DNA of 64,000 nt from Streptomyces sp. NBC_01335 (GTDB taxonomy: Bacteria > Actinomycetota > Actinomycetes > Streptomycetales > Streptomycetaceae). Both the position numbers and the translations under genes were made by a program. Within the stretch, counting starts at the first letter, position 1. Each line of letters begins with the position of its first letter. The stretch covers positions 2,604,001-2,668,000 of the forward strand of contig NZ_CP108370.1 of assembly GCF_035953295.1 (NCBI RefSeq), in the 5' to 3' direction. This document shows, in pieces, positions 36,765 through 56,433 of the stretch. The notes below the pieces were generated by a model. That model did not search any database. It was not told where the DNA came from and worked only from the letters and a program-made list of their open reading frames with translations.

Positions 36765-36823
36765 ACCTCCCGCACTCCGTACCGCCGTTGCCTCTCCTTC
36801 AACCGTCTTCAAGGAGCTTCGCC

Positions 36824-38155: not shown

Positions 38156-38161
38156 CCCGCG

Positions 38162-39103: not shown

Positions 39104-39105
39104 TC

Positions 39106-40011: not shown

Positions 40012-40012
40012 C

Positions 40013-41278: not shown

Positions 41279-42243
41279 ACGCTTCGGTCCTCGCCATCGA
41301 CGCGGGGAACAGCAAGACCGACGTGGCGCTGATAGGCGAAGACGGCACGGTGCTCGGCACGGGCCGGGGCGGCGGTTTCCAGCCGCCCGTGGTCGGCATA
41401 CCCGCCGCGCTGGACGTGCTCGCCGTCGCCGTGGCGGGGGCGTACGCCTCGGCCGGGGAGCCGGCCGGCCCGGTCGCGCACGTCGCCGCCTGCCTCGCCA
41501 ACGCCGACCTCCCCGTCGAGGAGGAGGAGTTGGCGGCCGCGCTGCTCGAACGCGGCTGGGGGCACACGGTCGAGGTGCGCAACGACACCTTCGCCGTGCT
41601 GCGCGCCGGGGTGGACGAACCCCGGGGCGTCGCGGTGGTCTGCGGCGCCGGGATCAACTGCGTGGGCATGCTGCCGGACGGGCGCACCGCCCGGTTCCCC
41701 GCGATCGGCCGGATGTCCGGTGACTGGGGCGGCGGTTCGGGGCTCGCCGAGGAGGCGCTCTGGTTCGCCGCCCGCGCCGAGGACGGCCGGGGCGAGCCGA
41801 CCGAGCTGGCCCGGGCGCTCCCGGCGCACTTCGGGCTCGGCTCGATGTACGAGCTGATCGAGGCGCTGCACCGGGAGCACATCCCGTACGAGCGCCGGCA
41901 CGAGCTGACCCCGGTGCTCTTCGCGACGGGCGCGGCCGGTGACCCGGTGGCGCGCGCGGTGGTGGACCGGCTCGCCGAGGAGGTCGTCGTGATGGCCTCG
42001 GTGGCGCTGGACCGGCTCGGCCTTCTGGAGGAGCACGTTCCGGTGATTCTCGGCGGCAGCGTGCTGGCCGCGCGCCACCCGGACCTGGACCGCCGGATCG
42101 CCACGCTGCTGGCGGCCCGCGCACCCCGGGCCGAGATCCGCGTGGTGGCCCAACCGCCGGTGCTGGGGGCCGCGTTGCTGGGCCTGGACCACACGGGGGC
42201 GGCACCCGAGGCGCACGCCAGGCTGCGCGCGCGGTACGCCTGA
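41269..42243 (+). CDS. csnK: BadF/BadG-type kinase, N-acetylglucosamine/glucosamine kinase-like
   Basis: Predicted to phosphorylate glucosamine released from chitosan oligosaccharides. The 324-aa protein has the ASKHA phosphate-1 motif VLAIDAGNSKTDVALIG near the start. It also has NDTFAVLRAGVDEPRGVAVV, VCGAGINCVGML and GRMSGDWGGGSGLAEEALWF. LGGSVLAARHPDLDRRI lies near the end. These fit the BadF/BadG family that includes GlcNAc kinase. I chose the GTG at 41269 because GGGAG lies 8 nt upstream. A GTG at 41275 also overlaps the csnH stop as GTGA. It is the last gene of the operon and a broken hairpin follows. Confidence 0.9.
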   Translation: MGVNASVLAIDAGNSKTDVALIGEDGTVLGTGRGGGFQPPVVGIPAALDVLAVAVAGAYASAGEPAGPVAHVAACLANADLPVEEEELAAALLERGWGHTVEVRNDTFAVLRAGVDEPRGVAVVCGAGINCVGMLPDGRTARFPAIGRMSGDWGGGSGLAEEALWFAARAEDGRGEPTELARALPAHFGLGSMYELIEALHREHIPYERRHELTPVLFATGAAGDPVARAVVDRLAEEVVVMASVALDRLGLLEEHVPVILGGSVLAARHPDLDRRIATLLAARAPRAEIRVVAQPPVLGAALLGLDHTGAAPEAHARLRARYA

Positions 42244-42286
42244 GGGCGCGCCGGATCGCCCCGGGAGGCCACCGGCGAACCCGCCG

Positions 42287-42323
42287 GTCCGTCAACTCCC
42301 GTACACCGTCGTACGGGACGGAC
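42287..42323 (+). terminator. Hairpin terminator after the csn operon
   Basis: An inner 8-bp stem (tcccgtac with gtacggga) and an outer 5-bp stem (gtccg with cggac), separated by a 5-nt bulge on one side, lie 43 bp past the csnK stop. Confidence 0.6.
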
Positions 42324-42524
42324 CTGACGCACGGGAACCGATCACCTGTGCCGATCGTGTTCACAGCGGAGGCGGTCCGGTAACGGCCGTAAAGGCCCGG
42401 GTCCGGCGCGAGATCCCGGTATTCCTGGTGGATGCCGGTCACTGCGGCCATACTTCAGCCCGGGCGCCACTCCCCCCGACCGGCCGGGGGCAACGGCGCC
42501 GTCAGTGACCGAGGGGGAAGCCGA

Positions 42525-43904
42525 GTGACACACCCGCCGATCGGGGGCCCGCCGCGACAGCACGGAGCGGCGCCGGTCTCCGGCGTGCCCGCCCAGCGGC
42601 GCGGGGCGGCATCCGCGCTGGCGGGGCGGCTGCGCGACGCGGCGACGACGGAGCCGGGGCGGCTGCGGCTCGTCGGAGCCGTACTCGCCCTGCTCGTCGT
42701 GGCGTTCGGGGCGGTGACCGCCGTGGAGGTCTCCGGCCGGGCCGCCGCCGCGGACGACGTGGTGAGCCGGAGCCAGCCGCTGAGCGCGGACGCGGCGGCC
42801 GTCTACCGTTCGCTCGCCGACGCGGACACCATGGCGGCGAGCGGGTTCCTCGCGGGCACCGAGGAGCCTTCGAGCGTCCGCGCCCAGTACGAGAAGGACA
42901 TCCGGAACGCCTCCCGGCTGCTGGTGAAGGCGGCGGCGAACACCGAGGCCACCACCTCCTCGGGCCGCGAGATCCGCACGATGAACGAGCTCCTCCCGGT
43001 CTACACCGGCCTGGTCGAGCGGGCCCGCGCCAACAACCGTCTCGGGCTGCCGCTGGGCGGCGCCTACCTCCGGTACGCCAACCAGAAGATGAGCGGTGAA
43101 CTGCTCCCCGCGGCCGAGCGGTTGTACACGGCGGAGACCGGCCGGCTCGACGCCGACCAGCGCGACGCCCGGCAGTGGCCGCTCGTCGCCCTCGCCGCCG
43201 GGATCGTGGCCCTCGCCGTGCTGGCCTGGGCGCAGCGGCGCGACTACCGCCGGACCAACCGGGTCTTCAGCCGCGGGCTGCTCGCCGCGACGGCCGCGAC
43301 CGCCGCCGCGCTGGTCTGGCTGGCCGCCGGGCAGGCCCTGGCCAGGACCGAGCTGCACCACGCGATGGCGGACGGCCAGGCCTCGCTGGACGTGCTGAAC
43401 GGCGCGCGGATCGCCTCCCTCAAGGCCCGCGCCAACGAGAACCTCACCCTGGTCGCCCGGGGCGCGGTGCTCACCGCGGACGGTTCCGCCGACCAGTACC
43501 AGACCGACTACACCGCGGACATGGACGCGCTGCGCACCGAGTTGGGCAAGGCCGGCGAGCTGGCCGACGACGACCCCGGGAGCACCCCGGTGAAGACGGC
43601 CGTCAGCAGCGTGACGGAGTGGCAGAAGCGCCACGCCGACGCCCGGAAGACCGACGACGGCGGCGACTACGAGGGCGCGCTCGCCCTGGTCATCGGGGCG
43701 AAGGGCTCCACCGGCGAGTGCTTCTCGAAGGTGGACGCCGCGCTGGAGACGGCCCTGGCCCACGAGCAGAGGCAGTTCGACGCGGCGGCCGGGAAGGGGC
43801 GCGGCGCCCTGGACGGGCTGGCGGTCGGGGCGGGGGTCCTGGCGGTGCTGGGAGCGGTCGCCGCGATCACCGGGATCGGCCGGCGACTCGGGGAGTTCCG
43901 GTGA
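42525..43904 (+). CDS. Four-TM sensor membrane protein, GlnX-like
   Basis: The 459-aa protein has a cytosolic tail (1-47) and TM1 at about 48-67 (RLVGAVLALLVVAFGAVTAV). An outer domain covers about 68-215 and TM2 about 216-235. After a short basic loop comes TM3 at about 250-272 and a second outer domain at about 273-431. TM4 is at about 432-452, with the tail RRLGEFR. Both outer domains are helical and contain the matching phrases ADADTMAASGFL and NGARIASLKARANENLTLVA, like duplicated 4-helix sensor bundles. This layout is that of mycobacterial GlnX, which links the binding protein GlnH to PknG. Gene order here is the same. The GTG at 42525 has GAGGGGGA upstream. Its TGA overlaps the next GTG. 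Called from topology and context, not a strong domain match. Confidence 0.8.
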   Translation: MTHPPIGGPPRQHGAAPVSGVPAQRRGAASALAGRLRDAATTEPGRLRLVGAVLALLVVAFGAVTAVEVSGRAAAADDVVSRSQPLSADAAAVYRSLADADTMAASGFLAGTEEPSSVRAQYEKDIRNASRLLVKAAANTEATTSSGREIRTMNELLPVYTGLVERARANNRLGLPLGGAYLRYANQKMSGELLPAAERLYTAETGRLDADQRDARQWPLVALAAGIVALAVLAWAQRRDYRRTNRVFSRGLLAATAATAAALVWLAAGQALARTELHHAMADGQASLDVLNGARIASLKARANENLTLVARGAVLTADGSADQYQTDYTADMDALRTELGKAGELADDDPGSTPVKTAVSSVTEWQKRHADARKTDDGGDYEGALALVIGAKGSTGECFSKVDAALETALAHEQRQFDAAAGKGRGALDGLAVGAGVLAVLGAVAAITGIGRRLGEFR

Positions 43905-44992
43905 ACGCGGACGGACCGGCAGGAGAGCCGGCAGGGGGAGGAGCGGTGGGAGGGGGAGCGATGGCGCGGGCACGGACACGGACCGGCGGGAGCAGGCTGC
44001 GTGGCTGGGGCGGGGTGACGGCCATGGCGGTGGCCTGTGTGCTCACCGCCCTGTTCGCCCTGCTGCCGCTGACGCACGACACCACCGGCTCGTTCGGCGG
44101 CGACTCGGGCCAGGGCACCGCGAGGGCCACCCAGGCGCGCGCCGACACCTGCGACAAGCCCGAGGCGAGCCTGCCGCCGTCGCGGAACGACGGTCCGGGC
44201 GTCGAGCGGATCAAGGAGCGCGGCAAGCTCATCGCCGGGGTGGACCAGAACAGCTACCGCTGGGGGTACCGCAATCCGGCGACCGGGAAGCTGGAGGGCT
44301 TCGACATCGACCTGGTCCGGGCCATCGCCCAGGACATCCTCGGCGACTCCTCCAAGGTGGTCTTCCGGGCCATCCCGACCAGCCAGCGGATCGCCGCGCT
44401 GGAGAGCGGCCGGGTCGACGTGGTGGTGCGGACCATGACGATCAACTGCGCGCGGCTGAAGCAGGTCGCGTTCTCCACCGCCTACTTCCGGGCGGGGCAG
44501 CAGGTGCTCGCCCCGGTGGCCTCGGACATCACCGGGTACAACGCCTCGCTGCGCGGGAAGCGGGTCTGCACCGCCGAGGGCTCCACCGCGTACGAGGCCC
44601 TGAAGAAGCAGTCGTACGGCGCGGTCTTCGAGGACGCGCACGACGGCACCGCCGGGGACGAGGACCGGCTGACCGTCCCCAGCCAGCTCGACTGCCTGGT
44701 GCGCCTCCAGCTCGGCGAGGTGGACGCCGTGGTGACGGACAACGCGCTGGCGGCGGGCCAGGTCGCCCAGGACCCGACGGTGGAGCTCAAGGGCGGCCCG
44801 TTCACGACGGAGTACTACGGCGTCGCCGCCAAGCTCGGCTCCGACGACCTGGTGGCCCGGGTCAACCAGGTGCTGGCGGACTACCGCAGCGGCGGTGCGG
44901 GGAGCCCGTGGATGCGCTCGTACCGCACCTGGCTGGAGGCCGGGCTGCCCGGCTTCACGGCGCCCCCGGCGCCCTCGTACCGGAGCAACTGA
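43901..44992 (+). CDS. Membrane-anchored amino-acid-binding protein, GlnH-like
   Basis: A periplasmic-binding-protein type II domain of the polar amino-acid class. The 363-aa product has one N-terminal membrane anchor (VTAMAVACVLTALFALLPLT, about 39-58) with no lipobox. The binding domain follows: RIKERGKLIAGVDQNSYRWG, GKLEGFDIDLVRAIAQDILG, IAALESGRVDVVVRTMTINC and FSTAYFRAGQQVLAPV. Four cysteines in the domain (ADTCDK, INCARL, RVCTAEG, QLDCLV) could form two disulfides outside the cell. No transporter genes are near, so it is more likely a sensor subunit than an importer part. Mycobacterial GlnH, a lipoprotein, binds Asp, Glu and related ligands and signals to PknG. The GTG at 43901 overlaps the previous stop by 4 nt. 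Confidence 0.88.
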   Translation: MNADGPAGEPAGGGAVGGGAMARARTRTGGSRLRGWGGVTAMAVACVLTALFALLPLTHDTTGSFGGDSGQGTARATQARADTCDKPEASLPPSRNDGPGVERIKERGKLIAGVDQNSYRWGYRNPATGKLEGFDIDLVRAIAQDILGDSSKVVFRAIPTSQRIAALESGRVDVVVRTMTINCARLKQVAFSTAYFRAGQQVLAPVASDITGYNASLRGKRVCTAEGSTAYEALKKQSYGAVFEDAHDGTAGDEDRLTVPSQLDCLVRLQLGEVDAVVTDNALAAGQVAQDPTVELKGGPFTTEYYGVAAKLGSDDLVARVNQVLADYRSGGAGSPWMRSYRTWLEAGLPGFTAPPAPSYRSN

Positions 44993-45036
44993 TCCCGGCG
45001 GCCTGCGGGCCGGCGGGGAGAGCGGAGAGGTGAGCG

Positions 45037-46419
45037 ATGGGCGTCGCGGGACCCTTCCCCAGCTACGCGGCCAGGCCCCCGGGCCCCGTCATGGACCGGG
45101 ACGAGGCGGACCGTGCGCTGGCCCGGCTCGGCGCGGAGCACGAGGCGATCGAGACCTCACTCCTCGCTCTCCAGGACCACGCGGGCCGGCGCCTCCTGGA
45201 GGGTGCCGACCTGTCCGGGGTGACCAAGGAGCGCTGGGCCGCCACCGAGCGGTCGATCACCCTGCTCTGGGGGTACTTCGACGCGTACGCCGACGCGCTC
45301 TCCCGGGCGCGCGAGGTGCGCGCCCGCAGGCGTCACCCCGGCCGGGAGGACCTGGAGACCCTCACCGGGCTGCTCCGGGGCCGCGAGATCACCGTGGCGC
45401 ACGGCGCCGCCCCGCCCGACCCCTCGGTCGCCGGTCCGGCCCGGCTCGCGACACGCTTCTCGCTGGAGGAGCTGGTGAGCCGGATGAACACGCTCTACGC
45501 CCGCTCGCTCGACATGGTGGTGGCCTCCGACTCCGTCTGGTCGGCGCTGCCCGCCCGGATCGACCTGCTCGCCGCCGAGCTCCACCGCACCCGTTCGCTG
45601 GCCCACTCCGTGGGGGTCCGGCCGGGCGAGCACCCGTCCGGCGACGACCTGGAGTCGATCACCCGGGAGCTCGCCGAGCTGCGGGCCCTGGTGATCGCCG
45701 ACCCGCTGGCGTTCTGGCTGCCGGGGCCGGGCAGCGCGGCGCCGGGCAGCGGGCGCGCGGACACCGCGCGGTACGACCGGGCGGCGCGCGCGCTGGAGGA
45801 GGTGCGGCGGGAGATCGAGGCGGTCCTCGCCGTCCGGCAGGACGCCGAACACCGGCTCGCCCGGCTGCGGGACGTGCTGTCGCGGGCGGACCGCACGCTG
45901 GCCGAGGCGCGGGCCGCCCGGGGCGAGGTGCTGGCGAAGATCGCCGCCTCGGAGGTGCCCGCCGTCAGCGGTCCGCCGACCGCGCTCCAGGAGCGGCTGG
46001 CCGCCGCCTCCGAGCACCGCAGGCACGCCCGCTGGCACCGGCTCCCGCCGCTCCTCGAACAGTTGGAGCGGGAGGCGGAGGAGGAGCTGCTGCGCGCCCG
46101 CGAGTCGCTGACCTCGGTGACCGCCCCGCTCGCCGTACGCGCGGAGCTGCGGGGCCGGCTCGACGCGTACCGCGCGAAGGTGGCGCGGCACGGGCTCGCG
46201 GAGGACCCGCTGCTGATCGAGCAGTACGACGCGGCCCGCCGGATGCTGTGGAGCGCGCCCTGCGACCTGCGGGTCGCCGACCAGGCGGTGCTGCGCTACC
46301 AGCGCACGGCCGCCGAGATGACCGCTCCGGGCCGGACGCCCCCGCCCGAGGACCGGCGGTACGACTTGCACGACGCGCACGACCGGCACGGCCGGCCCGA
46401 CGAGGGGGAGACCCGATGA
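45037..46419 (+). CDS. Helical coiled-coil protein of the PknG locus, function unknown
   Basis: A 460-aa soluble protein with no signal peptide or membrane helix. Almost the whole length is predicted helix, rich in Arg, Glu, Ala and Leu. Coiled-coil-like parts lie at about 255-310 (RAARALEEVRREIEAVLAVR) and 330-385 (LLEQLEREAEEELLRARESL). The C-terminus is His/Asp-rich (YDLHDAHDRHGRPDE). It matches no family I know. It sits between the GlnH-like gene (44-bp gap) and pknG. Its stop overlaps the pknG ATG in an ATGA arrangement, so its amount is probably tied to that of the kinase. A scaffold linking membrane sensors to the kinase is a plausible guess only. Confidence 0.85.
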   Translation: MGVAGPFPSYAARPPGPVMDRDEADRALARLGAEHEAIETSLLALQDHAGRRLLEGADLSGVTKERWAATERSITLLWGYFDAYADALSRAREVRARRRHPGREDLETLTGLLRGREITVAHGAAPPDPSVAGPARLATRFSLEELVSRMNTLYARSLDMVVASDSVWSALPARIDLLAAELHRTRSLAHSVGVRPGEHPSGDDLESITRELAELRALVIADPLAFWLPGPGSAAPGSGRADTARYDRAARALEEVRREIEAVLAVRQDAEHRLARLRDVLSRADRTLAEARAARGEVLAKIAASEVPAVSGPPTALQERLAAASEHRRHARWHRLPPLLEQLEREAEEELLRARESLTSVTAPLAVRAELRGRLDAYRAKVARHGLAEDPLLIEQYDAARRMLWSAPCDLRVADQAVLRYQRTAAEMTAPGRTPPPEDRRYDLHDAHDRHGRPDEGETR

Positions 46420-49400
46420 GTACCCGGTGCCAGCGCCCCACGTGCGAGGGCGCGTACGAGGACATGGGCGAGGGCGAGCTGTACTGCGACACCTGCGGTC
46501 TGGCCCCCGTGGTCTCCCCGAACGGCATGGTCGCCTCGCCGCCCACCGGCATCGCGGGCGGCCCCTTCGCCGCGCGCGGCGGCAACTCGGCGTCCGCACC
46601 TGCCGGTTCGCGCGCCTCGGGCCGGGCCTCCTCGCGTTCGTCGACCTCGCGGCGGTCCGTCTCGGGCCGGCTCTCGCGGGGGCTGTCCGGCGGGGCGGGG
46701 ACGGTGCCGTCGGTGTCGGTACGGGCCTCCGGCGCCTCGGGCGGCTCCTCCGGCCGGGGGCGGCTGGGCGCGGGCCTGGTGCAGGTGCCGGACGTGCCGC
46801 GCCCCGATCCCTGTGCGGCCGTGATGGCGAACCCCGAGGTCCCCGAGCGGAAGCGGTTCTGCTCGCGCTCGGACTGCGGGGCGCCGGTGGGCCGGGCGCG
46901 CGGCGACCGGCCGGGCCGCACCGAGGGGTTCTGCACCAAGTGCGGGCACCCGTACTCCTTCGTACCGAAGCTGCGCGGCGGTGACGTGGTGCACGGGCAG
47001 TACGAAGTCGCGGGCTGCCTCGCGCACGGCGGGCTCGGCTGGGTGTACCTCGCGGTGGACCGGGCCGTCTCGGACCGCTGGGTGGTCCTCAAGGGCCTGC
47101 TGGACACGGGCGACCAGGACGCCATGGCGGCGGCCATCTCGGAGCGCCGCTTCCTCGCGGAGATCGAGCACTCCAACATCGTGCGGATCTACAACTTCGT
47201 CGAGCACCTCGACCAGCGGACGGGTTCGCTGGACGGCTACATCGTGATGGAGTACGTCGGCGGCAAGGCCCTCAAGGAGATCGCCAACGACCGCCGCACC
47301 CCGTCCGGGAGGCGCGATCCGCTGCCGGTCGAGCAGGCGTGCGCGTACGGGATCGAGGCGCTGGAGGCACTCGGCCACCTGCACAGCCGCAACCTCCTGT
47401 ACTGCGACTTCAAGGTCGACAACGCGATCCAGACGGAGAACCAGCTCAAGCTGATCGACATGGGCGCGGTCCGCCGGATGGACGACGAGGAGTCGGCGAT
47501 CTACGGCACGGTGGGCTACCAGGCCCCCGAGGTCGGGGAGGTCGGCCCGTCGGTCGCCTCCGACCTGTACACGGTGGCGCGGACCCTCGCCGTGCTCACC
47601 TTCGACTTCCAGGGCTACACCAACGTCTTCGTGGACTCGCTGCCGGACCCGGAGAACATCGAGGTCTTCCGGACGTACGAGTCCTTCTACCGGCTGCTGG
47701 TCCGCGCCACCGACCCCGACCCGGCGCGGCGTTTCGCCTCGGCGGAGGAGATGGCCGAGCAGCTGACGGGGGTGTTGCGGGAGGTCGTGGCGCTCCAGTC
47801 GGGCCGCCCGCGCCCGGCCCTGTCCACCCTGTTCGGCCCGGAACTGCGGGTGACGGACACGGAGTTGTTCGCCGAGCTGACCGGTGACGTCTCCCGCCTC
47901 GGCGGCCGCGGCTCGCGGGCGGGGGCACGGGCGGGGCGGGCAGAACGCCCGAAGCGGCGCGGGAAGCCCGCCGCTGGGGCCGAGGCGGGAGCCGTCGGTA
48001 CGGGGACCGTCGCCCCGGGCGCGGTGGCTCCGGGCGCGGTGGCTCCGGCGGTGGCGGCGGCGCTGCCGGTGGGCCCGGGTCCGTACGGCGCCGTCCCCCC
48101 GGCCCGTACCGCGGCGCCCGGCCCGCAGCCCGCCGGGTACGCACCGGGCCCGGGGTACGCGACGCCTTCCGGGTACACGGGGCCCACCGGGAACTCCCAG
48201 CCTTCCGGGTACGCGGGGCCCTCCGGACACGCGGGGCCTTCCCCGTACTCCGCGCCGTCCGGACACACCCCGCCGGCCGGGTACCAGCCCTCGGCGGCGG
48301 CCCTCGCGGCCCCGCCCACCCACGCGAGCGGGGCGCCGGGCGGCCGTCCGCCGGCCGGTGGGCCGTCCCCCTACGTGCCGTCGCAGCCGGTGGCTCCGGC
48401 GTACGCCCACCCGGCGGCAGCCGCTCCGGCCCTGTCGTCCGGGGCGGGACCGGCACCGTCCGGGACCGGGCAGTGGCTCGACGGAGTGGACGCCGGTGCC
48501 ACCGCGCTCGCGCTGCCGGTGCCGCGTGTCGACGCGAGCGACCCCAACGCCGGTTTCCTCGCGGGGGTGATGGCCGCGGCTCCGCAGGAGCTGATCGGCG
48601 CACTGCGCACCGTGCCCGCGCCCTCCCCGGAGACCCGGCTGCGCGAGCTGCGCGCCCTGCTGGAGCTGGCGGAGTACGGGGCGGCCGGCCACGTACTGGG
48701 CGAGCTGGAGGCCCGGCACCCGGACGACTGGCGGGTGGTCTGGTACCGGGGAGTCGTCTCCCTGGTGACCGGTGACCGCGAGCGCGCGGCGCTCTCCTTC
48801 GACGCGGTGTACGACGCGTTCCCGGGCGAACCGGCGCCCAAGCTGGCGCTCGGCGTCTGCGCGGAGGTGCTGGGGCAGCTGGACAACGCCGCCGACTACT
48901 ACCACCTCGTCTGGACCACCGATCCGAGCTTCGTCAGCGCCGCGTTCGGGCTCGCCCGGGTGCGCTTCGCCGCCGGGGACCGTACGGGTGCGGTACGCAC
49001 GCTGGAGTCGGTGCCCGCCGCGTCGATCCACTTCACGGCCGCCCGGGTCGCCTCGGTCCGCGCGCGGCTGCGCGGGCGCGACCCGGGAGAGCCGCTGGCG
49101 GACGACCTGGCCGCCGCCTCGGACCAGATCACGGCGCTGGCCGGGCTGGGGCTGGACGCGGTGCGCCGCGAACGCCTGTCGACGGAGGTGCTGGGGACGG
49201 CGCTGGACTGGGTACTCTCCACAGGACCCGCCCGTCCGTCCGCGGGCCCCGCGCCCTTCGGGCCGGGCGCGCGGAAGCTGCTCGGCAGCGAACTGGACGA
49301 GCGGGGGCTCCGGTTCGGGCTGGAACGCGCTTATCGGATGCTCGCCAGGCTGGCTCAGCAGGGCGACGAGAGGATCGAACTGGTGGAGCGGGCCAACCGT

Positions 49401-49424
49401 TTCCGCCCCCGGACGTGGGTGTGA
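46416..49424 (+). CDS. pknG: Serine/threonine protein kinase PknG with zinc ribbons and TPR domain
   Basis: A cytosolic Ser/Thr kinase of the PknG class. The 1,002-aa product has an N-terminal zinc ribbon (CQRPTCEGAYEDMGEGELYC, then DTCG). A second lies at about 149-186 (CSRSDC...CTKCG). Kinase domain at about 190-455: glycine loop LAHGGLGWVY, ATP Lys226, catalytic Asp331/Lys333/Asn336 (YCDFKVDN) and Asp348 in DMG. These replacements for HRD and DFG resemble mycobacterial PknG. A long Pro/Gly/Ser linker (about 510-690) with repeats such as PSGYTGP, PSGYAGP and PSGHAGP follows. A TPR-like helical domain covers about 720-1000. Mycobacterial PknG is about 750 aa, so the linker explains the extra length. 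Coupled by overlap to genes on both sides. Confidence 0.95.
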   Translation: MSTRCQRPTCEGAYEDMGEGELYCDTCGLAPVVSPNGMVASPPTGIAGGPFAARGGNSASAPAGSRASGRASSRSSTSRRSVSGRLSRGLSGGAGTVPSVSVRASGASGGSSGRGRLGAGLVQVPDVPRPDPCAAVMANPEVPERKRFCSRSDCGAPVGRARGDRPGRTEGFCTKCGHPYSFVPKLRGGDVVHGQYEVAGCLAHGGLGWVYLAVDRAVSDRWVVLKGLLDTGDQDAMAAAISERRFLAEIEHSNIVRIYNFVEHLDQRTGSLDGYIVMEYVGGKALKEIANDRRTPSGRRDPLPVEQACAYGIEALEALGHLHSRNLLYCDFKVDNAIQTENQLKLIDMGAVRRMDDEESAIYGTVGYQAPEVGEVGPSVASDLYTVARTLAVLTFDFQGYTNVFVDSLPDPENIEVFRTYESFYRLLVRATDPDPARRFASAEEMAEQLTGVLREVVALQSGRPRPALSTLFGPELRVTDTELFAELTGDVSRLGGRGSRAGARAGRAERPKRRGKPAAGAEAGAVGTGTVAPGAVAPGAVAPAVAAALPVGPGPYGAVPPARTAAPGPQPAGYAPGPGYATPSGYTGPTGNSQPSGYAGPSGHAGPSPYSAPSGHTPPAGYQPSAAALAAPPTHASGAPGGRPPAGGPSPYVPSQPVAPAYAHPAAAAPALSSGAGPAPSGTGQWLDGVDAGATALALPVPRVDASDPNAGFLAGVMAAAPQELIGALRTVPAPSPETRLRELRALLELAEYGAAGHVLGELEARHPDDWRVVWYRGVVSLVTGDRERAALSFDAVYDAFPGEPAPKLALGVCAEVLGQLDNAADYYHLVWTTDPSFVSAAFGLARVRFAAGDRTGAVRTLESVPAASIHFTAARVASVRARLRGRDPGEPLADDLAAASDQITALAGLGLDAVRRERLSTEVLGTALDWVLSTGPARPSAGPAPFGPGARKLLGSELDERGLRFGLERAYRMLARLAQQGDERIELVERANRFRPRTWV

Positions 49425-49426
49425 AG

Positions 49427-51076
49427 ATGTCACAGATCCACCAGCAGGCGGCTGCCCTGCCGACGTGCCCCAGCTGCGCGGAACCACTGGAGCCGGGCGA
49501 CCTGTTCTGCGGCGCCTGCGGCTACGACCTGTCGGCGGTGCCCGAACGGCCGGGCGACCGGCCGACGATGGCGATCACCACCCCGCCTCCGCCCCCACCG
49601 GCAGCACCACCGGCCCCGCCTGTTCCGCCAGCCCCGCCGGTTCCGCCGGTTCCGCCTGTTCCGCCTGCTCAGCCGGTGGCTCCGGTGGCCCCGACGGCTC
49701 CGGGGGCTTCGGCTGCTCCGGGGGAAGCGGCTGCTGCGGTGGCTTCGGCTGCTGCGGCTCCCGCTCCGGTCCAGTGGCCGCCCGCGTCCGAGACCGACAC
49801 CTCGGACCAGCCCGCGCCCGTCCACCGTCCGGCCGACCTGCCTGGCCTGGACTCCGCGGGGCACCCGCTGTACGCCCGTGCGGCGGCTCCATCCGCCGCG
49901 CCGGTGGCCCCGCCCGCCGTGCGCCACGACGACCGGGCGGTGCCGGGGCAGCGCACCGACCACGGCCCGGGCACCAACTCCGGCACCAACGCCGGTTACG
50001 ACTCCGGGGACTTCGAGCTCGCGGCACCGGGATCCGCACCGGGGTCCGCACCGGCGGGCGTACCCGCCACCGACCCGCGCGCCCCCACGCCCCCCGCCCC
50101 CGGGGCCGCCGCGACGGCCACGACGCCCGCCGCCGGCACGAGCGCCCCGGCCGGCACCAAGCTCTGCGTCGCCTGCCGGGCCGGCCGGGTGGACACCGAC
50201 GGGTACTGCGAGACCTGCGGCCACGCCCAGCCGCGCGAACGCGACCACATGGAGCGGGAGCTCGGCGCGGTGGCGGCGGTCAGCGACCGCGGACTGCGCC
50301 ACCACCGCAACGAGGACTCCTTCGCCGTGTCGACGACCGCGCTGCCGGACGGTTCGCCGGCCGTCGTCGCGATCGTCTGCGACGGGGTGTCCTCCGCGCA
50401 CCGGCCCGACGAGGCGTCGGCCGCCGCCGCGCGGGCCGCCGACGCGTCCCTCCTGGAGTCGCTGCCGCGCGGTACGCACCCGCAGCAGGCGATGCACGAC
50501 GCGATCGTCGCGGCCTCCCGGGCGGTCAACGCGCTGGCCGAGGAGCAGGAGGGCGCGGCGGAGCACGATCCGCACCGCCACCAGAACGCCCCGGCCTGCA
50601 CCCTGGTCGGTGCGGTCGTCGCCGCCGGTCTGCTGATCGTCGGCTGGGTCGGCGACAGCCGCGTCTACTGGGTGCCGGCCGACCGTACCCAGCAGCCGGC
50701 CCGGCTCACCGAGGACGACTCCTGGGCCGCGCAGATGGTGGCGGCGGGCCTGATGAGCGAGGAGCAGGCGTACGCGGACGAGCGTGCCCACGCGATCACC
50801 GGCTGGCTCGGCGCGGACGCCTACGAACTCGACCCGCACACCGCGGCGTTCAAGCCCGACCGGCCGGGCACCGTGGTGGTCTGCACCGACGGGCTGTGGA
50901 ACTACGCGGAGTCCGCCGAGGAGATGGCCGCCGCCATGCCCCGGGACGCGGGCGAACGCCCCCTGCACGGCGCCCGGGTGCTGGTGGGGCACGCGCTCGA
51001 CGGCGGGGGCCACGACAACGTAACAGTGGCGCTGCTGCCGTTCGCCGTACCGCCCGCCGGGGCACACTCCGGCTGA
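49427..51076 (+). CDS. PP2C-type serine/threonine phosphatase with two zinc ribbons
   Basis: Likely the phosphatase that reverses PknG phosphorylation. The 549-aa product starts with a zinc ribbon (CPSCAEPLEPGDLFCGACG, about 14-32). A Pro/Ala-rich linker and a second ribbon (CVACRAGRVDTDGYCETCG, about 247-265) follow. The PP2C domain then fills about 280-545. Metal and phosphate motifs are all present: VSDRGLRHHRNEDSF, AIVCDGVSSAHRPDEAS, VGWVGDSRVYW, VVVCTDGLWNYAES and GGGHDNVTVALLP. Start choice is uncertain. ATG 49427 is used; GTG 49421 overlaps the pknG stop as GTGA and is also in frame. No membrane segment, so it acts in the cytosol beside the kinase. Confidence 0.94.
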   Translation: MSQIHQQAAALPTCPSCAEPLEPGDLFCGACGYDLSAVPERPGDRPTMAITTPPPPPPAAPPAPPVPPAPPVPPVPPVPPAQPVAPVAPTAPGASAAPGEAAAAVASAAAAPAPVQWPPASETDTSDQPAPVHRPADLPGLDSAGHPLYARAAAPSAAPVAPPAVRHDDRAVPGQRTDHGPGTNSGTNAGYDSGDFELAAPGSAPGSAPAGVPATDPRAPTPPAPGAAATATTPAAGTSAPAGTKLCVACRAGRVDTDGYCETCGHAQPRERDHMERELGAVAAVSDRGLRHHRNEDSFAVSTTALPDGSPAVVAIVCDGVSSAHRPDEASAAAARAADASLLESLPRGTHPQQAMHDAIVAASRAVNALAEEQEGAAEHDPHRHQNAPACTLVGAVVAAGLLIVGWVGDSRVYWVPADRTQQPARLTEDDSWAAQMVAAGLMSEEQAYADERAHAITGWLGADAYELDPHTAAFKPDRPGTVVVCTDGLWNYAESAEEMAAAMPRDAGERPLHGARVLVGHALDGGGHDNVTVALLPFAVPPAGAHSG

Positions 51077-51195
51077 CGGCCTCCCGGGCGCTTCCGGCTG
51101 TTTCCCACCGTTTCCCACCGCTTCGCCGCCTGGTCACCGACCGTCCAACGCACGCCCGCATCCGTCCCTCCGGTGGGGCATCGAGGAGCCGCTCC

Positions 51196-52563
51196 ATGGC
51201 CAACTTCTCCAAGTCGCAAGCGCCGCGGTTCTCCGTCGACGTGTACCAGAACAGTTACCTCCCCGAAGGGGGCCGTGAGGTCAACGCGATCGTCACCGTC
51301 ACCTCCACGGGAGGCGGCACGACGGGCGGCGTGCCGCTCGCCGGGAACGCGGGCGCGTCCGCATCCGCATCCGCATCCGCATCCGCGTCGAACGCGGCGG
51401 TCGTGCTCATGGTCGACTGCTCCGGGTCGATGGACTATCCGCCGACGAAGATGCGCAACGCCCGGGACGCCACCGCGGCGGCCATCGACACCCTGCGCGA
51501 CGGCACCCGGTTCGCGGTGGTGGCCGGTACGCACGTGGCGAGGGACGTCTACCCGGGCAACGGCCGGCTCGCCACGGCCGACCACCTGACCAAGGCGCAG
51601 GCCAAGGACGCGCTGCGCGGGCTGAGCGCGGGCGGCGGCACGGCGATCGGTACCTGGCTGCGCCTCGCCGACCGGCTGTTCGGCACCGCCGGGGCGGATC
51701 TGCGGCACGGCATCCTGCTGACCGACGGGCGCAACGAGCACGAGGCGCCGGAGGACCTGCGGGCGGCGCTGGACGCCTGCGCGGGCCGCTTCACCTGTGA
51801 CGCCCGGGGCGTCGGCACCGACTGGGAGGTGAAGGAGGTCACGGGCATCGCCTCCGCCCTGCTGGGCACCGCAGACATCGTCGCCGACCCGGCCGGGCTG
51901 GCGGCGGACTTCACGCGGATGATGGAGAACGCCATGGGCAAGGAGGTCGCGGACGTGGCGCTGCGGCTCTGGACGCCGGTGGACACCGAGATCCTCTTCG
52001 TGAAGCAGGTCGCTCCGTCGGTCGTCGACCTGACCGGGCGCCGGACGGAGGCGGGGCCGCGCGCCGGGGACTATCCGACGGGTTCCTGGGGTGACGAATC
52101 CCGCGATTATCACGTGTGCGTCAGGGTTCCCCAGGCCCGGATCGGCCAGGAGATGCTGGCGGCGCGGGTCTCTCTGGTCCTCCCGGCCCCTGCGGGCGGG
52201 GGCGCTCCGGGGACCCTCGCGCAGGGGCTCGTACGCGCGGTGTGGACCGACGACCTGGTGGCGTCCACGGCGATGAATCCGCAGGTCGCGCACTACACGG
52301 GCCAGGCCGAGCTGGCCCGGGTGATCCAGCAGGGACTCGACGCCCGCAAGGCCGGAGACCTGAACGGGGCGACCGCGAAACTGGGGCGCGCGGTGCAGCT
52401 CGCGTCGGTCTCCGGCAACGAGGACACCGCGAAGCTGCTTTCGAAGGTGGTCGACGTGGTCGACGCCGCGACAGGTACTGTGCGACTGAAAGCGAAGGTC
52501 GCGGAAGCGGACGAGATGACACTCGAAACGCGCTCCACCAAGACCGTTCGCGTCAAGAAGTAG
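51196..52563 (+). CDS. von Willebrand factor A-domain protein
   Basis: A 455-aa soluble protein. An N-terminal beta part (PRFSVDVYQNSYLPEGGREV, VNAIVTVTSTGGG) leads through an Ala-Ser dipeptide run (about 54-64) into a vWA domain. The metal-ion-dependent adhesion motif is MVDCSGSMD near residue 75, with the later conserved Thr in GGGTAIGTW and Asp in LLTDGRNEHEA. The C-terminal part (about 245-455) is mostly beta, then helical (YTGQAELARVIQQGLDARKA). vWA proteins paired with PP2C and FHA proteins occur in Ser/Thr phosphorylation and Ter-like loci, where they act as assembly or substrate proteins. GAGGAG precedes the ATG. It lies 119 bp after the phosphatase gene. Confidence 0.92.
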   Translation: MANFSKSQAPRFSVDVYQNSYLPEGGREVNAIVTVTSTGGGTTGGVPLAGNAGASASASASASASNAAVVLMVDCSGSMDYPPTKMRNARDATAAAIDTLRDGTRFAVVAGTHVARDVYPGNGRLATADHLTKAQAKDALRGLSAGGGTAIGTWLRLADRLFGTAGADLRHGILLTDGRNEHEAPEDLRAALDACAGRFTCDARGVGTDWEVKEVTGIASALLGTADIVADPAGLAADFTRMMENAMGKEVADVALRLWTPVDTEILFVKQVAPSVVDLTGRRTEAGPRAGDYPTGSWGDESRDYHVCVRVPQARIGQEMLAARVSLVLPAPAGGGAPGTLAQGLVRAVWTDDLVASTAMNPQVAHYTGQAELARVIQQGLDARKAGDLNGATAKLGRAVQLASVSGNEDTAKLLSKVVDVVDAATGTVRLKAKVAEADEMTLETRSTKTVRVKK

Positions 52564-52701
52564 CAAGAGAACGACACAGACGAAGCCGAGCGACAGAGTC
52601 GTCCGCACGGCCGAGGGCGGACCCTCCGCCCCGCCGCGCGCACGGCGATCGACGAGCATGACGGCCCCCTGGGCCGGACAAGGAGAGGGGGAAGCGCCGA
52701 C

Positions 52702-54279
52702 ATGCCGACCTGCCCGAACGGACACCAGTCGGGTTCCGAGGACTGGTGCGAGGTCTGCGGACATCGCATGGCCGGAGCCCGGCCGCCCGGTGCCGTCCCC
52801 CCGCCTCCCCCTCCGCCGCCGCCCGCTCCCGGGTACGGCTATCCGCAGGGCCCCGGCCCCGGCGGCCAGCAGACCGCCGGCGTCGAGCTCTGCCCGCAGT
52901 GCCGCACCCCGCGTGAGCCCGGGGCGCCGTTCTGCGAGGAGTGCCGGTGGAACTTCCTCACCAACACGGCCACCTCGTACACCCCGCTGGCTCCGCAGCC
53001 CGGCGCCGGTGGCGGCCCCGTGCCCGGTCTCAACCTGCCGCCCGGCTTCCAGGCGCAGCCCGGCCCCCGGCAGGCACCCCCGGCCCCGCAGTCCCAGGGG
53101 CCGCAGTCCTCGGGCCCGCAGTCCCACGGCCCGCAGTCCCACGGTCCGCAGCCTCCGCAGCCGCGCGACCCCTACGAGTACCAGGGCTCGCGCCCCTCGC
53201 AGCTGAACCGCCCGGCGGAGCCCCTCGTACCGGACCGCGACGGCCGGCAGGCCCCGCCGAGCGCCTTCCAGCAGGGGCCGCCGCCTGCCTCCTTCCAGCA
53301 GGGTCCGCCGCCCCCGGCCTTCCAGCAGGGACAGCAGGGACAGCCGGGCCAGCAGGGACAGCCGGGCCAGCAGGGCCGTCCCGGACAGCCGGGCCCCCAG
53401 GGCGGGCCGGGCGGGCCGCCGCCGTTCCCGCAGGGCGGGCAGCAGCAGTTCCCCGGCCACCCCGGGCAGCCGTCCTTCCCGCAGGGCCAGCCGGGACAGC
53501 CGGGTCAGCAGGGTGGTCCGGGACAGCAGGGCGGCCCGGGACAGCAGGGCGGCCCGCCGGCCGGGTTCCAGCAGAGCCCGCCGCCGTCGTCGTTCCAGCA
53601 GAGCGCGCCGCCCGCGCCCGGTCCGGTGTCCGCGCCGGAGGCGGACGACTGGATGCTGCCGCCGCCCTCACAGGGCCAGGCCGGTGCGCAGGCGGGTGCC
53701 CAGGCGCCGCACGCCCCCGCGCCGCACCAGCAGCCGCCGCACGCCTTCCAGCAGAGCCCCCAGGGGGCCTTCCCGCCGCCGTTCCCCGGTCAGGGCGGCT
53801 TCCCCGGTGCCCAGGCGGGTCCCGGAGCGCAGGGCGGCCAGGCGGGTCCCGGTGGGCAGGAGCCGCCGCGGCCGGCCACCTGGACCGCGGTGATCGCGCC
53901 GGACCGTGACTACTTCCTGGCGATGATGCAGCGCAGCGGCCCGGAGGCGACGGGGCTGAACCTGCCCGCGTACTCCCCCGAGCAGCACCTCGAACTCGCG
54001 GGCAGCCAGGTCACCATCGGGCGCCGCCGGCACTCCACCGGCGAGTCGCCCGACATCGACCTGGCGGTGCCGCCGGAGGACCCGGGCGTCTCGCACCAGC
54101 ACGCGGTCCTGGTGAAGCAGCCGGACGGCGGCTGGGCGGTGGTGGACCAGAACTCCACCAACGGCACCACGCTGAACGGCGCCGAGGACCCGATCCAGCC
54201 CTACGTGCCGGTCCCGCTCCAGGACGGCGACCAGGTGCACGTCGGCGCGTGGACGACGATCACGGTCCGCCGGGGCTGA
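52702..54279 (+). CDS. FHA-domain protein with zinc ribbons and a long low-complexity linker
   Basis: The probable phosphothreonine reader of the locus. The 525-aa product has a zinc ribbon at the very start (CPNGHQSGSEDWCEVCG, about 4-20) and another at about 60-80 (CPQCRTPREPGAPFCEECR). A Gln/Pro/Gly-rich linker of about 300 residues has repeats such as GPQSH, QQGQPG and QQGGPG. The FHA domain is at about 430-525: TIGRRRHSTGESPDIDLAVP, DPGVSHQHAVLV, then QNSTNGTTLNG. The Arg, Ser-His and Asn residues that bind pThr are all kept. In mycobacteria the PknG target GarA is a short FHA protein. This is much longer but has the same end domain, so it may be a functional counterpart. GGAGAGGGGG precedes the ATG. 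Confidence 0.94.
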   Translation: MPTCPNGHQSGSEDWCEVCGHRMAGARPPGAVPPPPPPPPPAPGYGYPQGPGPGGQQTAGVELCPQCRTPREPGAPFCEECRWNFLTNTATSYTPLAPQPGAGGGPVPGLNLPPGFQAQPGPRQAPPAPQSQGPQSSGPQSHGPQSHGPQPPQPRDPYEYQGSRPSQLNRPAEPLVPDRDGRQAPPSAFQQGPPPASFQQGPPPPAFQQGQQGQPGQQGQPGQQGRPGQPGPQGGPGGPPPFPQGGQQQFPGHPGQPSFPQGQPGQPGQQGGPGQQGGPGQQGGPPAGFQQSPPPSSFQQSAPPAPGPVSAPEADDWMLPPPSQGQAGAQAGAQAPHAPAPHQQPPHAFQQSPQGAFPPPFPGQGGFPGAQAGPGAQGGQAGPGGQEPPRPATWTAVIAPDRDYFLAMMQRSGPEATGLNLPAYSPEQHLELAGSQVTIGRRRHSTGESPDIDLAVPPEDPGVSHQHAVLVKQPDGGWAVVDQNSTNGTTLNGAEDPIQPYVPVPLQDGDQVHVGAWTTITVRRG

Positions 54280-54311
54280 CCCGCCGGGCGCCGCTCGCCC
54301 TCATGTGAACC

Positions 54312-54352
54312 CATGGCCCCTCACCGCTCCTCGTGACCGGTGAGGGGCCATG
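54312..54352. terminator. Bidirectional hairpin terminator
   Basis: A 14-bp perfect stem (54312-54325 with 54339-54352) lies between the convergent FHA and methyltransferase genes. It overlaps the last codons of the latter. Confidence 0.8.
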
Positions 54353-55313
54353 TGTACGGGCCCTCCGGGTCGTCCAGCCAGGCCCACTGCCGGCCCCGGG
54401 CGTCGACGGTGAGGCCGAAGCGTTCACGGCCGGGGCGTCCCTCGCCCTCCCAGAGGTTCATCGCCTCGTCCGCGCCGAGCGAGCCGCCCGCCAGGGTGAG
54501 CAGGAACGAGTAGAGGTCGTTCCCCGTCATGCGCCGCGCCCGACCGCCGTACCGCTCCGGCGTCCCGCGCAGCGGTACGAAGAACGCCGGGGTGTGCAGG
54601 AAGTGCCCCTCGGCCCGCCGTCCGCCCGCCGTCTCCCGCACCCGGAGAAGGATCAGCCCGGTGGCGAAGGGGGCCAGGATGCGCGCGTCGGGGGCGCACT
54701 GCGCGAGCCAGCCCTCGGGGATCAGCGGCAGGGTGCAGGTCGCGATGATCCTGTCGTACGGGCTCCGCCCCGGGCAGCCGCGTGCCCCGTCGCCGGTGAC
54801 GACGGTCGGGCGGTACCCGGCGGCGGCGAGGTGGCGGCGGGCGGACTCGGTGATCTCCGGGTCGAGGTCGACGGTGGTGACCGCCCGGTCGCCGAGCCGG
54901 TGGGCGAGCAGGGCGGCGTTGTAGCCGGTGCCCGCGCCGATCTCCAGCACGCTCTGGCCGTCGCGCACGTCCAGCGCGTCGAGCATGAGCGCCATCAGGG
55001 AGGGCTGGCTGCTGGAGGAGACGAGTTCGCCGTCCTTCATCCGGGTGGCCAGCGGCCCGTCCGCGTACGCCCCGCGCAGCCACTGCTCGCGGCGTCCGGG
55101 GTCGGCGTCCTCGCACCAGAGGCGTACGTGGCCGAGGAGCCCGCCCTCGTAGTAGTACGGCACGAACAGGTGGCGGGGCACGTCCTCGAAGGCCGCGCGC
55201 CAGGCGGGGTCGCGCAGCCCGCCGTCGGCCACGATGAGCCGCACCATGGCCTGCCGGGCCGCCGCCCCCTCGGTCTCGAACGGATCGCGCCCCGCGCGCT
55301 GTGGTCCACCCAT
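54321..55313 (-). CDS. Protein-L-isoaspartate O-methyltransferase-like methyltransferase
   Basis: A 330-aa SAM-dependent methyltransferase of the PCMT group. The N-terminal part has AFEDVPRHLFVPYYYEGGLL, the usual PCMT segment that recognises the substrate end. It is followed by SSSQPSLMALMLDALDVRDG. SAM motif I is VLEIGAGTGYNAALLAHRLG near residues 120-140, and motif II is VTTVDLDPEITESARRHLAA. The C-terminal extension of about 110 residues is longer than in classical Pcm (about 210 aa) and typical of Streptomyces paralogues. These are used in protein repair or peptide tailoring. No peptide precursor gene is nearby. The start is ATG 55313. Confidence 0.88.
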   Translation of the reverse strand: MGGPQRAGRDPFETEGAAARQAMVRLIVADGGLRDPAWRAAFEDVPRHLFVPYYYEGGLLGHVRLWCEDADPGRREQWLRGAYADGPLATRMKDGELVSSSSQPSLMALMLDALDVRDGQSVLEIGAGTGYNAALLAHRLGDRAVTTVDLDPEITESARRHLAAAGYRPTVVTGDGARGCPGRSPYDRIIATCTLPLIPEGWLAQCAPDARILAPFATGLILLRVRETAGGRRAEGHFLHTPAFFVPLRGTPERYGGRARRMTGNDLYSFLLTLAGGSLGADEAMNLWEGEGRPGRERFGLTVDARGRQWAWLDDPEGPYTWPLTGHEER

Positions 55314-55360
55314 GCCTCCACTCTCCTGCGGCGGCGCCCGGCGGGCGAGCGGCGGGCCCG

Positions 55361-56257
55361 TCACGAGGGCGGGTGGGTGGCGTGGGACGCGGCGTACAGG
55401 ATGTCCCGCAGGCCGGGCAGGGCCTCGCGGTCCTCGCGCCAGACGAGGCGCAGGCTGAGGTCGGGCAGGGGAAGGCCGAGCCGGACCAGGGTGCCCGCCC
55501 GGAGGCTGTCGGCGACCGCGAAGTGCGGCAGCAGCGCGATGCCGAGGCCGTGCTCGGCCCAGGCGCGCATCACCGTGACCCCGCCGGCCCGGACCCGCTC
55601 GGGGCCGGGGCCGAGGATGCGGTCGGCGGCCATCCGGAACGAGCACTCCGGGACGTTGACCAGGAGCCGCTCGCGGTCGAGGTCGGCGGGGACCAGCGCG
55701 CTCCGGCCGGCCAGGGCGTGGGCCGGGGCGGCGACCAGGGCGAGCGGGACCGGGTCGAGATCGACGAACGCCAGCGGTTCGGCCGGCGGCGGAAAGCCGA
55801 GGCCGCCGAGCTCCTCGCCGGAGTCCAGCAGCAACGCCGCGTCGAGCCGCCCCGCCACGACGTCGGCGAACAGCAGCTGGCGGCTGCCGTCGGCGTGGAC
55901 CTCGACGTCGGTCTCGGGCCGCCGCTCGGCCAGCCGGGCGAGGACCAGCGGGACGTGGGAGCCGGCCAGGGTCTCCAGGGCGCCGAGCCGCAGCCTCCGT
56001 CGCTCGGCCCGGACGTCGCGGACGGCCGCTTCGGCCGTGTCGAGCAGCGAACGCGCCCAGCCGCACAGCCGCTGCCCGGCGGCCGTCGGCTCCATCCCCC
56101 GGGGTCCCCGGTCGAAGAGGGACACCCCGAGAGCCGATTCGAGGGAGCGGATCTGCTCCGAGACCGAGGAGGGAGCGAGGCCGAGCGCGACGGCGGCCGC
56201 GGTGACGGTCCGGTGGTCGAAGACGGCCGTGAAGACTCTGAGTTGGCGTAGCTCCAT
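55361..56257 (-). CDS. LysR-family transcriptional regulator
   Basis: A 298-aa regulator with an N-terminal winged helix-turn-helix (ELRQLRVFTAVFDHRTVTAA, ALGLAPSSVSEQIRSLESAL, FDRGPRGMEPTAAGQRL). A type II periplasmic-like effector domain (about 90-290) follows. It is transcribed away from the MFS gene at 56434, with 176 bp between the two starts. That is the usual layout when a LysR protein controls its divergent neighbour. The effector is unknown. No clean T-N11-A palindrome stands out in the gap. Confidence 0.94.
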   Translation of the reverse strand: MELRQLRVFTAVFDHRTVTAAAVALGLAPSSVSEQIRSLESALGVSLFDRGPRGMEPTAAGQRLCGWARSLLDTAEAAVRDVRAERRRLRLGALETLAGSHVPLVLARLAERRPETDVEVHADGSRQLLFADVVAGRLDAALLLDSGEELGGLGFPPPAEPLAFVDLDPVPLALVAAPAHALAGRSALVPADLDRERLLVNVPECSFRMAADRILGPGPERVRAGGVTVMRAWAEHGLGIALLPHFAVADSLRAGTLVRLGLPLPDLSLRLVWREDREALPGLRDILYAASHATHPPS

Positions 56258-56433
56258 GGCAGAGGAGAACGCGTCGGAGCGTTCGGGGATTCCGAACGCT
56301 CCGTGCGGACGAGCCGGTGGAACCCACCCACCGGAACGGCCAAGGTGAGCCGCCTGCACCCGAGTTCGCCCGGCACCCTGCCCGCGTTGCCGGAACTCCC
56401 CAGCTCGCACACCGCCCTGGAGGCCGTCCCGTC

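Follow-up and report, generated by a model that had tools for sequence, protein, structure and literature searches.

Work on the kinase PknG has dealt with a three-gene system whose target is GarA/OdhI, and signaling from the binding protein GlnH to PknG has been published in mycobacteria and Corynebacterium (PMC6069109, PMC8546545, PMC9769921; papers are cited here by PMC identifier). In Streptomyces sp. NBC_01335, a 64,000-nucleotide stretch of contig NZ_CP108370.1, referred to below as the window, carries pknG within a block of seven genes. An earlier note, made from the sequence alone, had described seven consecutive plus-strand genes with three 4-nt overlaps between stops and starts, and both descriptions held: open reading frame (ORF) calling placed all seven genes on the + strand at 42525-54279, with overlaps of 4 nt at glnX/glnH (GTGA), coiled-coil/pknG (ATGA), and pknG/PP2C (GTGA), while the three other junctions are gaps of 44, 119, and 138 nt. 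Our best reading, to which we give an even chance, is that this is a PknG operon with its own ArnA/ArnB-like phospho-switch as output, i.e., a pair consisting of a vWA protein and an FHA protein resembling the archaeal ArnB and ArnA. The features concerned are as follows.

42525-43904, + strand: glnX, sensor/transducer of the GlnX family with four transmembrane segments (NF058618, 467.3 bits, cut-off 250; four hydrophobic segments)
43901-44992, + strand: glnH, membrane-anchored amino-acid-binding protein (SBP_bac_3, 84 bits; one N-terminal hydrophobic segment)
45037-46419, + strand: coiled-coil gene, conserved long-helical protein and possible scaffold (no Pfam family above cut-off)
46416-49424, + strand: pknG, with zinc ribbon, rubredoxin, kinase, and TPR parts (PF16919, PF00069, and PF16918 above cut-off)
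49421-51076, + strand: PP2C phosphatase gene (PP2C_2, PF13672, 54 bits; N-terminal zinc-ribbon-like stretches)
51196-52563, + strand: vWA gene, ArnB-like, with vWA domain, beta-sandwich, C-terminal helices, and Thr-rich tail as predicted (VWA_3; VWA_3_C, PF18571, 80 bits)
51415-51429, + strand: metal-ion-dependent adhesion site (MIDAS) motif DCSGS of the vWA protein (residues 74-78)
52510-52560, + strand: C-terminal tail of the vWA protein, DEMTLETRSTKTVRVKK (residues 439-455), put forward as the stretch that PknG modifies and the FHA domain docks on; T450 at 52543-52545
52702-54279, + strand: FHA gene, ArnA-like, with two zinc ribbons, Pro/Gln-rich linker, and C-terminal FHA domain (DZR weak, below cut-off)
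54010-54246, + strand: FHA domain (residues 437-515; PF00498, 57 bits)

The block is widely conserved in Streptomyces. Among the best 80 of at least 568 related stretches from a PknG scan of a species-level genome collection, all 80 of them titled Streptomyces, 62 loci contained all seven genes, in a single order and on a single strand in every case (62/62); the remaining 18 were without 3'-side genes only, and in these the locus sequence stops inside the block. The 4-nt overlaps were kept at 77/80 loci for glnX/glnH, 51/80 for coiled-coil/pknG, and 32/70 for pknG/PP2C, and a pairwise comparison across these loci indicated that the coiled-coil and vWA proteins are mostly better conserved than GlnX and GlnH. 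The neighborhood survey across Streptomyces that had been proposed as a check thus revealed conserved linkage. Together with the counts in other families given below, it supports the interpretation of the block as a conserved module of sensor, kinase, phosphatase, and FHA reader, including the vWA and coiled-coil genes, and argues against a chance arrangement; with the full set at 62 of 80 loci and in other families, the block is also no peculiarity of this genome. One Streptomyces locus (L135, genome G134) had several module genes in pieces and in different frames, through either decay or sequencing error. Streptomyces genomes can also carry second PknG loci: of the nine fetched, five pair pknG with a neighboring vWA gene, and in four of those five a weak match to the coiled-coil profile (28-32 bits) was also recorded; the other four had none of the six partners at the thresholds used.

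The central evidence for an ArnB-like output comes from the vWA protein. It matches the solved homologue 4fx5 across residues 6-455 (475 bits), and a Foldseek search with its structure model, which is weak, placed 4fx5 first (E 9.9e-45), the ArnAB structure 8s05 at ranks 2 and 3 (E 2.5e-14 and 7.1e-13), and VWA2 (5a8j) at rank 6 (E 6.0e-12), with 13-15% identity in the fold alignments to ArnAB and VWA2. When PDB sequences were searched with a single profile of this protein, 4fx5 was among the 6 matches at E 0.1, and ArnB and VWA2 were not. The likeness of 4FX5 to ArnB was pointed out by the ArnB authors, who described the same tripartite fold (PMC6509490). As modeled, the vWA protein has an ArnB-like fold in this tripartite layout, with a vWA domain, a beta-sandwich, and a C-terminal helical bundle. 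The D/S/S residues of its MIDAS and their T and D partners were kept in 68/68 Streptomyces proteins and in 21/21 other module vWA proteins, whereas one S and one T were replaced in the five second-copy vWA proteins.

The C-terminal tail, a low-confidence part of the structure model, reads LETRSTKTVRVKK in the module and is conserved across families. Of 32 proteins from outside Streptomyces, 30 had T and the other 2 had S at position 450, and 30 had S at position 447; in the window protein, only two other Thr positions exceed T450 in conservation, and both are at the MIDAS. The strict pattern [ED][TS]xST[KR]T occurred in 21/22 Streptomyces main copies, in 5/5 proteins of family f22, 5/10 of f15, 1/14 of f16 (Frankiaceae), 1/1 each of f37 and f11, and 0/1 of f41, and in none of the five second copies. 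In four second PknG loci of Streptomyces (L127, L128, L129, and L130), the vWA gene follows pknG and has an ST[KR]T stretch near its end and then a zinc ribbon fused C-terminally, which looks like a transfer of a portion of the FHA partner to the vWA protein. For comparison, the threonines that ArnC phosphorylates in ArnB belong to its C-terminal helical region, beginning with T353 (within an SIETT motif), T363, and T375, and the FHA domain of ArnA then binds phospho-ArnB, converting a loose complex held by the zinc finger into a tight one (PMC12852372). The phosphorylation of ArnB is reversed by PP2A (PMC7472852), and the ArnA-ArnB interaction drops upon nutrient depletion (PMC6509490). The same ArnA/ArnB authors considered such vWA proteins to be mostly outside multi-phosphorylation control (PMC12852372).

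The FHA protein, 525 residues long with two zinc ribbons, provides the matching half. ArnA consists of a zinc finger or ribbon, a linker, and a C-terminal FHA domain (PMC10470591), and judging from its domain matches and sequence patterns, the module FHA protein has this same layout; of 57 module FHA ORFs, 55 had a zinc-ribbon pattern ahead of the FHA domain. Residues of the phosphothreonine-binding site were kept in 62/62 Streptomyces homologues, bar one N to D change, and the R, S, N, and G of the site in 15/17 proteins from elsewhere, where the H following the S is R in 5.

On the input side, a GlnX-type membrane protein (NF058618) and a GlnH-type binding protein (PDB matches) are linked to pknG. 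GlnX scored 168 bits with the narrower equivalog NF041460, below its cut-off of 780, and the best PDB matches of GlnH were the M. tuberculosis GlnH structures 6h1u, 6h20, and 6h2t (E about 2e-47). Relative to the residue roles described for the Asp/Glu pocket (PMC6069109), the Streptomyces proteins keep the equivalents of R147 and D250 (80/80 each), T162 (79/80), and R169 (77/80), but have changed W232 to Q (80/80), K161 to R (80/80), and S164 to T (79/80), the W232 equivalent being Trp in 6/6 sequences of family f4. Because of these changes, Asp/Glu specificity should not be assumed. PknG has the rubredoxin-kinase-TPR architecture (PF16919, 108 bits; PF00069, 86; PF16918, 289; all above cut-off) and matches the PknG structure 2pzi with 562 bits. 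The N-terminus of Streptomyces PknG includes a Thr that is conserved in 97% of the 80 stretches aligned; an extra zinc-ribbon-like stretch (window 46416-46830) and a strongly conserved Ser/Arg-rich stretch, SRRSVSGRLSR...RSVSVR, were also observed there. For the PP2C phosphatase, 66-68 of the 69 Streptomyces homologues retained the metal-site residues, the exceptions being gaps and one N to H change. AlphaFold2 predicted the coiled-coil protein to be a nearly all-helical bundle (pLDDT, i.e., predicted local distance difference test, 89.9), for which a structure search gave no clear structural match.

Next, we evaluated how far the module extends beyond Streptomyces. Within the class, 90 of 246 genomes had a PknG_TPR match (88 above cut-off), as did 25 of 95 genera. 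We scanned 115 loci around these class-level matches with profiles that were built on the Streptomyces proteins and afterwards on the loci themselves; within the 64-kb window, these profiles matched the seven genes only. Loci were tallied if the pknG frame had ≥3.5 kb of sequence before it and ≥6 kb after it. All seven genes were present in 21/21 tallied Streptomyces main copies (L135, with its broken genes, and the cut-off L196 stand outside this group), as well as in 5/5 loci of f22 and 1/1 each of f37 and f11, where the coiled-coil matches are weak (42-101 bits). For main copies in Frankiaceae (f16), glnX, glnH, and PP2C were found at 10/10 loci and the coiled-coil, vWA, and FHA genes at 9/10; in f15, the family that includes Thermomonospora, the counts out of 14 were 14 for glnX/glnH, 13 for PP2C and FHA, 11 for vWA, and 10 for coiled-coil. 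Since glnX-glnH are placed after the FHA gene in f15, the order differs while the gene set stays. Several Frankia-type second PknG loci (L106, L108, L131, L112, L114, L166, L168, and L176) have a convergent glnH-glnX pair, with L106, L108, and L131 showing two sensor pairs at one kinase. A further kind of Frankia-type locus (L216-L220, five fetched) contains PP2C, vWA, and FHA genes away from PknG_TPR; in L219 these are joined by a coiled-coil gene and by a PknG-like kinase, for which the scan detected no TPR domain.

The reduced set is found in family f4, which we take to be mycobacterial because of its very high scores with the PknG_TPR model: glnX/glnH were present at 18/20 loci, the two without them being second copies, and the other four genes at 0/20. 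The statement that mycobacteria have only the three-gene set therefore agrees with these counts, provided the family is correctly assigned. The main locus of f41 (L102) likewise consists of glnX-glnH-pknG only. Genome-wide, VWA_3_C was found in 62 of the 246 class genomes (60 above cut-off), and PknG_TPR was present in 58 of these (odds ratio 69 by Fisher's test, p about 5e-28, uncorrected for shared ancestry); none of the 62 is among the 21 f4 genomes with PknG. Linkage looks looser in f16 and f41, where 12 of the 29 VWA_3_C matches compared at the locus level lay ≤4 kb from a PknG_TPR match and 17 lay far from one or on another contig, in assemblies that are often fragmented. Across the phylum sample, VWA_3_C was detected in 10/296 genomes, nine of them from the window's genus and one (G418) from another class; the G418 locus has all seven genes, with the glnX-glnH pair facing the remaining five. 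The mycobacterial type was nested inside the seven-gene types in two PknG trees, albeit with midpoint rooting and weak deep nodes. This suggests that the three-gene mycobacterial version is probably a reduced form of the seven-gene block, loss of four genes in one line being a simpler reading than a single gain elsewhere.

Evidence on transcription is weak. In a consensus scan covering 41500-55500, the counts were 0 for sigma-70-like promoters (chance expectation 0.1; other promoter types are outside its reach) and 0 for terminator-like sites (chance expectation 1.4), and with chance expectations this low it says little about operon continuity. Upstream, on the + strand at window 36788-41278, lie genes for a solute-binding protein, two transporter permeases, and a family 4 glycosidase, and downstream, on the - strand at 54321-56573, a gene for a protein with a PCMT domain.

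By analogy with the known systems, we infer phosphorylation, binding, and ligand along the following lines. On the outer side of the membrane, GlnH would bind an amino acid, either acidic or of a related kind, and GlnX would relay the signal to the TPR part of PknG, as in the known logic of this sensor pair. PknG may then phosphorylate Thr or Ser residues in the C-terminal tail of the vWA protein, with T450 as the first candidate, and the FHA domain of the zinc-ribbon protein would bind the phosphorylated tail, turning a loose complex held by the zinc ribbons into a tight one. The PP2C phosphatase would reverse the tail phosphorylation, and the coiled-coil protein probably serves to keep the kinase and its substrates in one assembly. 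A bolder version, which we put forward tentatively and at somewhat less than an even chance, is that in actinobacteria an ArnA/ArnB-type vWA-FHA switch is wired in one operon to a transmembrane amino-acid sensor, PknG, and its own phosphatase, that the vWA protein rather than GarA was the original PknG substrate, and that this arm disappeared from mycobacteria, which retained PknG together with GarA.

The equation of the FHA protein with GarA, proposed in the earlier note, would make it a metabolic effector itself phosphorylated by PknG. An FHA domain with an intact phosphothreonine site does adjoin PknG, but this reading appears improbable: the protein, with its 525 residues and two zinc ribbons, reached 22.1 bits with the NCBIfam OdhI/GarA model (cut-off 200). 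An ETT-type phosphosite is the mark of GarA/OdhI, and the window protein does not contain the motif; the wide [ED]TT pattern occurred in 1/79 module FHA ORFs (L120, an open frame of 2382 residues) versus 7/7 GarA-like control loci. The window's genome also has a separate GarA-like FHA gene at 1066244-1066576, about 1.58 Mb away (188.5 bits, below the 200-bit cut-off), whose ORF contains SETTSTISI and a zinc-ribbon-like stretch. The OdhI/GarA model found matches in 246/246 genomes, 27 of them above cut-off, and also picks up other FHA proteins. In the Streptomyces GarA-like ORF at L144 (3227-4150, - strand), the zinc-ribbon-like stretch precedes the SETTSTISI site. The equation with GarA is thus not supported, and the module itself offers no demonstration of the proposed link to central metabolism. 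This same separate gene is, conversely, what lends some weight to another possibility, namely that the FHA and vWA proteins form a docking platform rather than the output: PknG would phosphorylate itself and be recognized in that state by the FHA domain, the vWA protein and the coiled-coil protein would keep the complex at GlnX, and the separate GarA would be the actual target. PknG acts through GarA/OdhI in mycobacteria and corynebacteria (PMC6069109, PMC8546545), and the conserved Thr and SRRSVSGRLSR stretch of the Streptomyces PknG N-terminus would fit such a role. We nevertheless consider it rather unlikely, as it leaves the conserved Thr of the vWA tail unexplained. A TxxxFRxDF-like stretch of the mycobacterial-type PknG L082 was found in 0/80 Streptomyces PknG ORFs, an absence that weighs little because only 5/23 f4 ORFs have it.

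Two further readings concern the pathway as a whole. Kinase, vWA, phosphatase, and FHA components also come together in the type VI threonine-phosphorylation pathway, in which the PpkA kinase carries a vWA domain (PMC1262709) and works with the PppA phosphatase, an Fha protein, and TagQRST (PMC3953482), and a relative of this pathway might control an assembled machine rather than metabolism. We judge this very improbable, since the FHA protein scored 36.2 bits in the TagH model (cut-off 120.25), no secretion domain was found in the 10 flanking ORFs scanned, and both kinase architecture and sensors differ. That the genes are merely co-located without a common pathway could draw on the subsets of the block seen at some loci, but given their recurrence across families in varied gene orders, and the near confinement of VWA_3_C to PknG genomes in the sample, we give this almost no credence.

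An ArnA/ArnB-like switch downstream of PknG can be compared with four known systems. The conservation of a pknG operon arrangement with glnX and glnH in Actinomycetales has been reported, with Streptomyces named among the holders (PMC6069109), and the available main text of that paper contains "phosphatase", "Willebrand", and "coiled" 0 times. We found no description of the extended operon, or of a vWA/FHA pair tied to PknG, in the literature searched, from which subscription journals were mostly out of reach, and "PknG" occurred 0 times in the ArnA/ArnB literature checked for the term. The GlnH-GlnX-PknG system of Mycobacterium and Corynebacterium has the same sensor pair, the same kinase family, and neighboring genes, but here four extra genes are linked, the Trp232 equivalent of GlnH is Gln in all 80 Streptomyces proteins, and the FHA protein appears not to be GarA. 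If the module is indeed wider and, as it looks, older, it would provide PknG with a dedicated phosphatase and likely native partners, the antibiotic-producing Streptomyces with a testable path that leads from the supply of amino acids to decisions of the cell, and the solved structure 4FX5 with a possible function. The type VI PpkA-PppA-Fha pathway is similar in its kinase, vWA, PP2C, FHA, and sensor components, but has the vWA domain fused to the kinase. An actinobacterial neighborhood of zinc-ribbon kinase, PP2C, and standalone vWA has been tied to GAP1-N2 GTPase conflict systems (PMC7159879), which likewise have these three as neighbors; unlike here, the link there is to a GTPase, and PknG and GlnX appear 0 times in the available text. 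Finally, Sulfolobus ArnA-ArnB combines a protein of zinc ribbon, linker, and FHA domain with one of vWA, beta-sandwich, and helical parts, responds to nutrients together with the kinases ArnC and ArnD, of which ArnC reportedly has a TPR-like stretch, and has phosphorylatable C-terminal threonines in ArnB, for which the conserved tail described here would be the candidate counterpart. The module differs from it in having two zinc ribbons, PP2C instead of PP2A, a dedicated membrane sensor, and a single gene block. Overall, the module would give the archaeal ArnA/ArnB switch a counterpart in bacteria and, if the proposed mechanism is true, the same nutrient-state switch logic would operate in bacteria and archaea.

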